Below are positions 19,723 through 24,334 of a stretch of DNA of 64,000 nucleotides, one piece after another. The notes beneath the pieces are model-generated. The model ran no database searches, had not been told where the DNA came from, and saw nothing but the letters and a program-made list of their open reading frames with translations. The stretch is taken from the NCBI RefSeq assembly GCF_005403045.1, contig NZ_BJCL01000005.1, positions 186,001 to 250,000 of the forward strand, written 5' to 3'. The first letter of the stretch is position 1. Every line of letters begins with the position of its first letter. The stretch comes from Pseudaquabacterium pictum (GTDB taxonomy: Bacteria > Pseudomonadota > Gammaproteobacteria > Burkholderiales > Burkholderiaceae_C). Position numbers and translations under genes: made by a program.

Positions 19723-19728
19723 TATAAT
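19723..19728 (+). promoter_or_regulatory. -10 element of carAB
   Basis: A consensus TATAAT lies 33 bases after the preceding stop codon. Transcription would start near 19735, producing a leader of about 140 bases before the carA start. The -35 region is GC-rich and poor. Confidence 0.6.
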
Positions 19729-19734
19729 TCCGAG

Positions 19735-19875
19735 GTTTACCCGCCACCACCGCAGCCTAGCGAAACTCCTGCGAAGTTTCCCTCCGGACTTCCTGCCCAG
19801 GGCCTTGCCGACACCACGTCGGTGCGGCTCCATGCGAGCGGAGCTGGGCGTGCGCGACTTCCGGAGCCAATTCTC
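19735..19875 (+). promoter_or_regulatory. Structured 5' leader RNA of carAB that pairs with the carA ribosome-binding site
   Basis: The leader folds into nested helices that can be read directly. A first hairpin pairs 19762-19767 with 19775-19780 (7-base loop). An outer 7-bp perfect helix pairs 19782-19788 with 19860-19866. An inner helix pairs 19795-19800 with 19844-19849. Inside it are two hairpins: 19808-19812 with 19818-19822, and 19828-19831 with 19840-19843. The 3' strand of the outer helix contains the CCGGAG Shine-Dalgarno of carA, so closing the helix would hide the ribosome-binding site. This is the architecture of a translation-control riboswitch, T-box-like or protein-bound leader. 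What it senses is unknown; pyrimidine, arginine or purine supply are natural candidates for carAB. I do not recognise it as a named motif. Confidence 0.65.
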
Positions 19876-21040
19876 TTGCTGCCTGTTCTGCCCCCCGCAC
19901 TTCTCGCCCTTGCAGACGGCACGGTCTTCCAGGGCATCTCCATCGGCGCCGCCGGGTTCACCGTGGGCGAGGTGGTGTTCAACACCGCCCTCACCGGTTA
20001 CCAGGAAATCCTCACCGACCCCAGCTACTGCCGGCAGATCGTCACCCTGACGTATCCGCACATCGGCAGCTACGGTGTCAACGAGGAAGACGTCGAAGCC
20101 ACGAAGATCCATGCCGCCGGCCTGATCATCAAGGACCTGCCGGTGCGCATGTCCAACTTCCGCGCCACCAGCACGCTGGACGCCTACCTGCAGCGTGAAG
20201 GCACGGTGGCCATCGCCGGCATCGACACCCGACGGCTGACCCGGGTTCTGCGCACCAAGGGCGCGCAGAACGGCTGCATCACCAGCTTCGCAGCCGGTCA
20301 CAGCATCACCCAGGCCGACATCGACGCCGCCATCACCCGCGCCCAGGGCGCGCCCAGCATGGCCGGGCAGGACCTGGCTCAGGTGGTGTCGGTGAACCAA
20401 CCCTACGCCTGGTCCGAGACCGAATGGGCGCTGGGCAGCGGCCACGGCACCTTGTCGGACGCCCGCTTCCACGTCGTGGCCTACGACTTCGGCGTCAAGC
20501 GCAACATCCTGCGCATGCTGGCCAGCCGCGGCTGCCGCGTCACCGTGGTGCCGGCCCAGACGCCGGCTGCCGAGGTGCTGGCGCTGCGCCCCGACGGCAT
20601 CTTCCTGAGCAATGGCCCGGGTGACCCGGAACCCTGCGACTACGCCATCACCGCCGCCCGCACGCTGATCGACACCGGCATTCCCACCTTCGGCATCTGC
20701 CTGGGCCACCAGATCATGGCGCTGGCCTCGGGCGCCAAGACCTTCAAGATGAAGTTCGGCCACCACGGCGCCAACCATCCGGTGAAGGATCTCGACTCCG
20801 GCAGGGTATCGATCACCAGCCAGAACCACGGCTTCGCGGTCGACGAGACCAGCCTGCCGCCCAACCTGCGCCCCACCCACATCAGCCTGTTCGACAACAC
20901 GCTGCAGGGCCTGGCCCGCACCGACAAGCCCGCGTTCTGCTTCCAGGGCCACCCGGAAGCATCGCCCGGCCCGCACGACATCGCCTACCTGTTTGACCGC
21001 TTCACGACGCTCATGTCCGAAGTGAAGGCGGAGAAGAAGA

Positions 21041-21048
<8 letters not shown>
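19876..21048 (+). CDS. carA: Carbamoyl-phosphate synthase, small (glutaminase) subunit
   Basis: Hydrolyses glutamine and channels ammonia to CarB for carbamoyl phosphate, the shared precursor of arginine and pyrimidines. The 390-residue protein has an N-terminal CPSase domain ([16 protein letters not shown] onward) and a class I glutamine amidotransferase with nucleophile Cys275 ([12 protein letters not shown]) and the His/Glu pair in [11 protein letters not shown]. No suitable ATG exists at the homologous N-terminus; TTG 19876 is chosen because CGGAG stands nine bases upstream and the protein then starts like its relatives. A rare TTG start plus a sequestered ribosome-binding site suggests tight translational control. 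It overlaps carB by eight bases. Confidence 0.93.

Positions 21049-24334
<3,286 letters not shown>

Follow-up and report, generated by a model that had tools for sequence, protein, structure and literature searches.

The carAB operon of E. coli is controlled through tandem promoters, ArgR, PepA/PyrH and other DNA-level control, and in Bacillus and mycobacteria PyrR controls pyr leaders. The named RNA closest to the locus described here is the carA ncRNA motif (Rfam RF04192); where Brewer et al. 2021 treat the SRC-12-1 carA motif, they give 30 examples, rank it as a strong riboswitch candidate and describe an extended imperfect hairpin directly upstream of the ribosome-binding site (RBS), with little covariation support (PMC8632094). 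A stem-loop in the carA P32 leader of P. aeruginosa is needed for the pyrimidine response, according to the account of that leader in PMC4997734, and the E. coli carAB promoter P1 is described as starting with 5′-GUUUGC and stuttering with UTP, in the text on that promoter in PMC6245113. In addition, a listing in PMC5688073 places carA of B. cenocepacia among the genes with short 5′UTR transcripts. RF04192 was not found by name in the literature searched, and PMC11109978 contains no mention of carA, carbamoyl, Burkholderia or pyrimidine.

Here we analyzed the carAB leader in a stretch of 64,000 nucleotides from Pseudaquabacterium pictum, referred to as the window, together with carA leaders from its genus, its family and beyond. 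The features of the locus, all on the plus strand, are as follows.

19723..19728, +, the carAB promoter −10 hexamer TATAAT, read in the sequence
19734..19739, +, the predicted transcript start G(G)UUUA, with the putative start at G19735, from position-specific conservation
19751..19761, +, the 5′ arm of helix P1, CGCA followed by GCCUAGC and forming part of a conserved YAGCG (arm-permutation tests, RNAalifold and AGCG placement)
19762..19780, +, the P2 hairpin GAAAC(...)GUUUC, 19762-19766 paired with 19776-19780 (alignments A5 and A7)
19781..19842, +, a C-rich apical region with a conserved CCGGA and variable length and sequence (alignments and C excess)
19843..19854, +, the 3′ arm of P1, GCUGGGC, a bulged G19850 and UGCG (same basis as the 5′ arm)
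19864..19867, +, the carA Shine-Dalgarno (SD) sequence GGAG, 9 nt past P1 and 8 nt before the TTG (sequence)
19876..21048, +, carA, 390 aa, TTG start (open reading frame)
21041..24334, +, an open reading frame overlapping the end of carA, which we take to be carB from sequence similarity

Counted from G19735, the leader runs for about 141 nt up to the TTG. No −35 consensus or full sigma-70 site was found in the carA promoter region by a promoter scan, and we take the whole leader to be transcribed on the basis of the −10, its fixed spacing to G-UUU and the listing of a Burkholderia carA among short-5′UTR genes. The original prediction had named the TATAAT and the TTG-started carA, and both hold in the sequence, the TTG start recurring in congeners. 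Upstream of the TTG, the carA frame stays open as far as GTG 19822, and an automatic caller could add 18 residues to CarA; conservation favors TTG 19876 as the probable start over GTG 19822. The SD GGAG is present in 20/20 genus leaders of alignment A7, in which each leader was cut at its own GGAG.

CarA was found in 93 of 100 family genomes, and exclusion of G031, G093 and G003 (partial match) left 90 leaders, reduced to 89 by dropping L173, which has no recognizable SD. All 21 genomes of the genus encode CarA and gave 20 full leaders, L223 being without the carA start; these were aligned without structure. Two types of leader were picked out by pattern in the family and named sets: type A (25, the window's kind) and type B (56, Comamonas-like). 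Leaders of neither type were left out of the type-wise pairing, SD-accessibility, C-excess and loop-SD tests, while those from the family were kept in the 89-leader permutation and helix counts. Five leaders are repeated, each with one copy in the named and one in the unnamed sets (L012/L116, L015/L137, L028/L166, L029/L197 on the same contig, and L035/L192), and removal of the repeats leaves 24 distinct leaders of type A and 54 of type B; the SD-accessibility, C-excess, further-control and shuffled-loop figures include the repeats. In choosing the family −10, a bonus was given to a following G-Y-T motif.

In family carA leaders, helix P1 joins a 5′ strand about 15-48 nt from the −10 to one lying shortly before the SD. 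The window's P1 consists of 19751-19754 with 19851-19854 and 19755-19761 with 19843-19849, for 11 bp and one bulge (G19850). Pairing is stronger between cognate arms than between permuted ones in the 89 family leaders (z −12), in type A (25 leaders, z −5.0) and in type B (56 leaders, z −9.7), while mid-leader controls gave z +0.9 and +2.6, respectively. With identical leaders removed, the 24 and 54 remaining leaders gave z −5.0 and −9.4 (controls +0.8 and +2.5). Further controls, repeats included, gave z −1.3, −1.5, −0.3 and +3.6. The signal extends beyond the family, with z −4.3 for 20 leaders out of 23 loci, for which a T-rich start was required and L193 and L192 (no SD) and L031 (no −10) were skipped. 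When the competing 3′ arms were limited to the five non-identical ones most similar to the cognate, the cognate arm won in 18/24 (p 0.003) and 42/54 (p 2e-4) distinct leaders of types A and B. An unbroken helix of at least 7 bp between the 5′ and 3′ zones, which in some leaders may not be P1, is present in 66/89 family leaders (54 distinct sequences), with a permuted-arm expectation of 40 on average and 55 at most in 20,000 permutations; 5/89 have no 6-bp helix between the arm zones.

Given an unaided MAFFT alignment of 25 leaders, RNAalifold returned the P1 core and nothing else, and the core reappears in the genus alignment. It was not found by RNAalifold in the 58-leader alignment A2, which we put down to misaligned arms. 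Column-wise covariation was not significant in the genus MAFFT alignment, where one pair changed on both sides and 282/500 shuffles did as well or better, nor in alignment A6; a shift of the arms from row to row may be the reason. Thermodynamically, P1 has a predicted probability of about 0.19 in the window, and forcing it costs 1.8 kcal/mol. Taken together, the permutation tests show that P1 is under pairing constraint.

Enclosed by P1, the P2 hairpin is invariant in all 10 leaders of alignment A5 and mostly kept in the genus, and type A leaders carry P2, the conserved CCGGA and a variable hairpin region. A covariance model (R1) built from the 10 A5 leaders, all from other genera and none from the window's, matched 19729-19874 with 55.8 bits, the other two matches in the 6.1 Mb genome scoring 18.3 and 17.5 bits, so that the element appears to exist in one copy, linked to carA. 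A second model, R2, misses L001 and L087. R1 gave weak full-leader matches in 2/5 type B loci tried (L114 and L170, 20.4 and 17 bits) and low-scoring pieces in L109. Each model was also run on 160 genomes across the order, including four of the window's family, and strong matches among the 21 candidates scored per genome fell only within that family (G000 for R1; G192 and G232 for R2), and the family genome G148 was missed by both. Six weak matches elsewhere in the order (E 0.0017 to 0.045) lie at loci with no CarA match. Separately, the Burkholderia-like leaders L036, L043, L046, L051 and L187 are roughly 230-300 nt long, with P1-like arms and a much longer apical insert.

How does this leader relate to RF04192? 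The original prediction did not recognize the leader as a named riboswitch, and this holds for the window itself, whose carA leader has no Rfam match at the gathering threshold or at E≤5 and does not reach the RF04192 gathering threshold (100 bits), the sole Rfam match in the window up to E 5 being a 13-bit fragment inside a coding region; a named relative nevertheless exists in the RF04192 carA ncRNA motif. The RF04192 model had no match in the 100 family genomes, in 14 control genomes or, up to E 10, in 12 chosen loci. It does match the carA leaders L185 and L186 (162 and 203 bits) from G130 and G175, small genomes of the same order that we take as Polynucleobacter-like, and up to E 10 neither R1 nor R2 matches these two loci. 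In RF04192 the closing helix pairs CCCU(AGC)GCUU with GAGC AGGG adjoining the SD, and Burkholderia-/Oxalobacteraceae-like leaders have CACCCU/AGGGUG and CCGUAGC/GCUACGG helices in the equivalent place.

The window shares with RF04192 a position directly upstream of carA, starting just after a promoter (read from the −10 alone) and abutting the RBS, and a closing helix in which a CCYAGCG-type 5′ strand at a fixed −10 offset pairs with a strand beside the SD, the distance from the −10 to YAGCG being the same. AGCG lies 26-38 nt past the −10 in 17/20 genus, 33/79 family and 17/19 other crown leaders (16/18 without a repeat) and in 2/2 RF04192 loci, against shuffled expectations of 1.2, 3.6, 0.3 and 0.0; these counts required a T-rich start, hence the 79 family leaders. 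The corresponding count is 6/33 against 1.7 expected in the "other beta/gamma" group, which is a remainder group; a minimum of four of its leaders (L040, L042, L044 and L189) are Comamonadaceae- or family-like. There are also differences: AGC is a bulge in RF04192 and is paired in the window, the gap between P1 and the SD is 9 nt in the window and 3 nt in RF04192, and the apical parts look unrelated, the conserved apical imperfect-hairpin sequence of RF04192 not being seen by eye in alignments A1 and A7. Since the window does not reach RF04192 and our models miss L185 and L186, the evidence for kinship is the genomic location, the architecture and the YAGCG strand, from which we infer a diverged relative, filed as such and not as a member.

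Our preferred reading, to which we assign a probability of about 0.55, is that the leader is a P1-closed cis-acting structured RNA, a diverged relative of the carA class, that gates expression and is joined by a UTP-sensitive layer. The carAB leader would be closed by the long-range helix P1, with its 3′ strand predicted to end 9 nt before the SD; the short conserved P2 hairpin and the C-rich apical region, which varies, would lie inside this helix. Most probably the leader is a diverged relative of a carA leader class spread across crown Burkholderiales, of which RF04192 (Polynucleobacter) would be the named branch. P1 would border the 30S site on its upstream side and gate carA translation, or alternatively control Rho access to the C-rich leader, and the signal could be pyrimidine or arginine status, relayed by a small molecule or by an RNA-binding protein. 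A further layer, distinct from P1, is probably provided by UTP-sensitive reiterative initiation at the conserved G-UUU.

An unlikely yet serious alternative is that P1 is a passive insulator that ties up the GC-rich leader, leaving the SD open and the mRNA stable, with no sensing. In type A (25 leaders) the mean unpaired probability of the SD is 0.46, against 0.26 with shuffled upstream sequence (p 1.2e-5), as expected if the leader simply kept the SD accessible, and the variable length and sequence of the apical region, along with the lack of a conserved unpaired core across lineages other than YAGCG, would agree with such a role. However, type B (56 leaders) shows no excess openness (0.25 versus 0.25 shuffled), and the SD of the window is exceptional in being predicted closed, with an unpaired probability of 0.02 (0.62 in the congener L087) and 0.02-0.12 per base even with P1 forced. 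Furthermore, the lineage-specific P2 and CCGGA and the position-locked YAGCG suggest recognition, which passive insulation does not explain.

Rather unlikely, in our judgment, is Rho-dependent attenuation, in which the C-rich leader loads Rho and P1 or a bound factor controls access. C exceeds G in 25/25 type A and 56/56 type B leaders, and C minus G for the first 91 nt of the leader is in the top 2.4% of the window, but the full 127-nt leader stands at the 11% level. No intrinsic terminator was found in the window by a terminator scan; a simple scan gave 0/20 in the genus leaders, which have no terminator hairpin with a U tract of the kind expected of an intrinsic attenuator. The short-5′UTR listing of B. 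cenocepacia carA also fits premature termination, although the paper, in the part dealing with such transcripts, explains them by processing or by attenuation that involves a terminator structure (PMC5688073).

The Pseudomonas carA leader resembles that of the window in being a structured RNA upstream of the same operon, and differs in the Rho-independent terminator described for it (PMC4997734, in the text on that leader), given the 0/20 in the window's genus. Elsewhere, the simple scan was positive in 5/88 family, 5/23 named Comamonadaceae-like and 1/22 other crown leaders, none of those shown being AGCGGGA-like, and a terminator-like hairpin, mostly of the AGCGGGA type, occurs in 19/53 remaining loci (18/52 distinct), mostly other beta/gamma. 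We observed AGCGGGA...UCCCGCU-type hairpins with a short U-rich tail in L029, L038, L048, L052, L057, L060-L062, L069, L082, L197 and others, and these hairpins upstream of beta/gamma carA are reminiscent of the Pseudomonas carA attenuator.

Control could also act at initiation only, through UTP-sensitive stuttering at G-UUU, with the RNA fold having no regulatory role. GTTT lies exactly 6 nt past the −10 in 20/20 genus, 37/88 family, 13/23 order-sample and 28/80 named-set leaders, with 4 occurrences in all at other offsets, and 73/88 family −10 hexamers have TTT at offset 7; the GTTT spacing count used neither the G-Y-T bonus nor the T-rich rule. The window has the sequence expected for UTP-sensitive reiterative initiation, with a predicted start at G19735 followed by UUU at a fixed −10 spacing, as in the E. 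coli promoter (PMC6245113, in its text on carAB), the likeness covering the start pattern alone. This suggests E. coli-like UTP-sensitive initiation as a separate lead for pyrimidine control. The G-TTT spacing (window 19734-19738) is also found in lineages of the order whose carA leaders are otherwise unrelated. As a complete account, control at initiation only is quite improbable, because it leaves the pairing constraint on P1 unexplained and the RF04192 loci lack G-UUU (0/3 hexamers), which is also a difference between them and the window.

The original prediction was of a nested fold of five helices controlling CarA translation. The complementary stretches it listed, including the small hairpins, are present: CTCCGGA at 19782-19788, within the apical region, is the perfect complement of TCCGGAG at 19860-19866, which overlaps the SD at 19864-19867, and GCCCAG at 19795-19800 is complementary to CTGGGC at 19844-19849. 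They do not amount to a conserved structure or reach significance. Predicted folding is not stronger for the leader than for its dinucleotide shuffles (z −0.04 for 166 nt and −0.40 for 117 nt), and forcing the 7-bp stem, to which the prediction gives a probability of 0.04, costs 2.1 kcal/mol of ensemble energy. Among the 20 genus leaders it is complete in 4 (L001, L087 and L214, and L219 with a G-U pair), its U-A pair is broken in 16, and no pair is altered on both sides, so that the compensatory changes sought for this stem were absent; 83% of its cells do pair, and the CCGGA/UCCGG core is mostly kept. For the inner 6-bp stem, 72% of cells pair, the last pair is broken in 16/20 and covariation in the genus alignment is not above shuffles. 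This stem competes with P1 for the same 3′ bases, and P1 turns the outer stem into a crossing (pseudoknot) interaction.

Across types A and B, loop-SD complementarity showed no excess over permuted or shuffled loops, with low power in the permutation test because the SD hardly varies, and a loop-SD pseudoknot was rejected as a general feature. Pairing between the SD and the transcript's 5′ end, which RNAalifold suggested for the genus alignment and which also appeared in the window's fold when P1 was forced, is not supported either. In type A the 5′ ends form better pairings with the SDs of type B than with those of their own leaders, and in type B cognate pairs show no gain; this is weak evidence, as neither partner varies much. 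That the 7-bp stem masks the SD and opens upon a signal is thus very improbable, given a complete stem in 4/20 congeners with no compensatory change, no loop-SD signal, type A SDs more open than chance and an inner stem that competes with P1, against which stand the fully complementary arms of the window, L087 and L214 (and the G-U version in L219), the retained CCGGA/UCCGG core in most of the genus and the closed SD predicted for the window. What remains of the cis-acting claim is a conserved structured leader that probably acts in cis; the nested fold and a conserved SD-sequestering pairing, as an RBS-masking riboswitch would have, were not found.

Returning to the P1-closed leader RNA as the preferred reading, PyrR is the best candidate for a protein partner, as the genome encodes a PyrR-like protein and ArgR was not found in it. 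The PyrR-like gene lies beside pyrB (L224, G000:C6 around 126865-127242), a likeness to the PyrR-controlled pyr leaders, in an apparent YqgE/RuvX/pyrR/pyrB/dihydroorotase cluster, with names given by similarity; the Bacillus PyrR binding-loop consensus was not seen by eye. A search for ArgR (PF01316, E≤0.001) gave no match in the own genome and was positive in 9/14 control genomes, so the regulator that an ArgR-controlled car operon requires was not detected here.

A broader reading, which is tentative and somewhat short of even odds, is that a Burkholderiales-wide carA leader RNA has replaced the terminator-type pyrimidine attenuator of other proteobacteria and acts as a metabolite or PyrR switch on top of UTP-sensitive initiation, with no ArgR. 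As part of the same reading, this carA leader RNA would have gone unrecognized outside Polynucleobacter. In the window's genus, P1 may be joined by a loop-SD pseudoknot (CCGGA with UCCGG) that serves as the OFF lock.

The carA motif is a marginal candidate, and a constrained helix in the like place in a far larger and more diverse set of leaders would offer enough natural variation to hunt for ligands and probe the structure. For the biology of these bacteria, our findings suggest RNA control, and not control by ArgR, of the branch point that separates arginine from pyrimidine synthesis in at least this lineage of Burkholderiales, a large environmental order.
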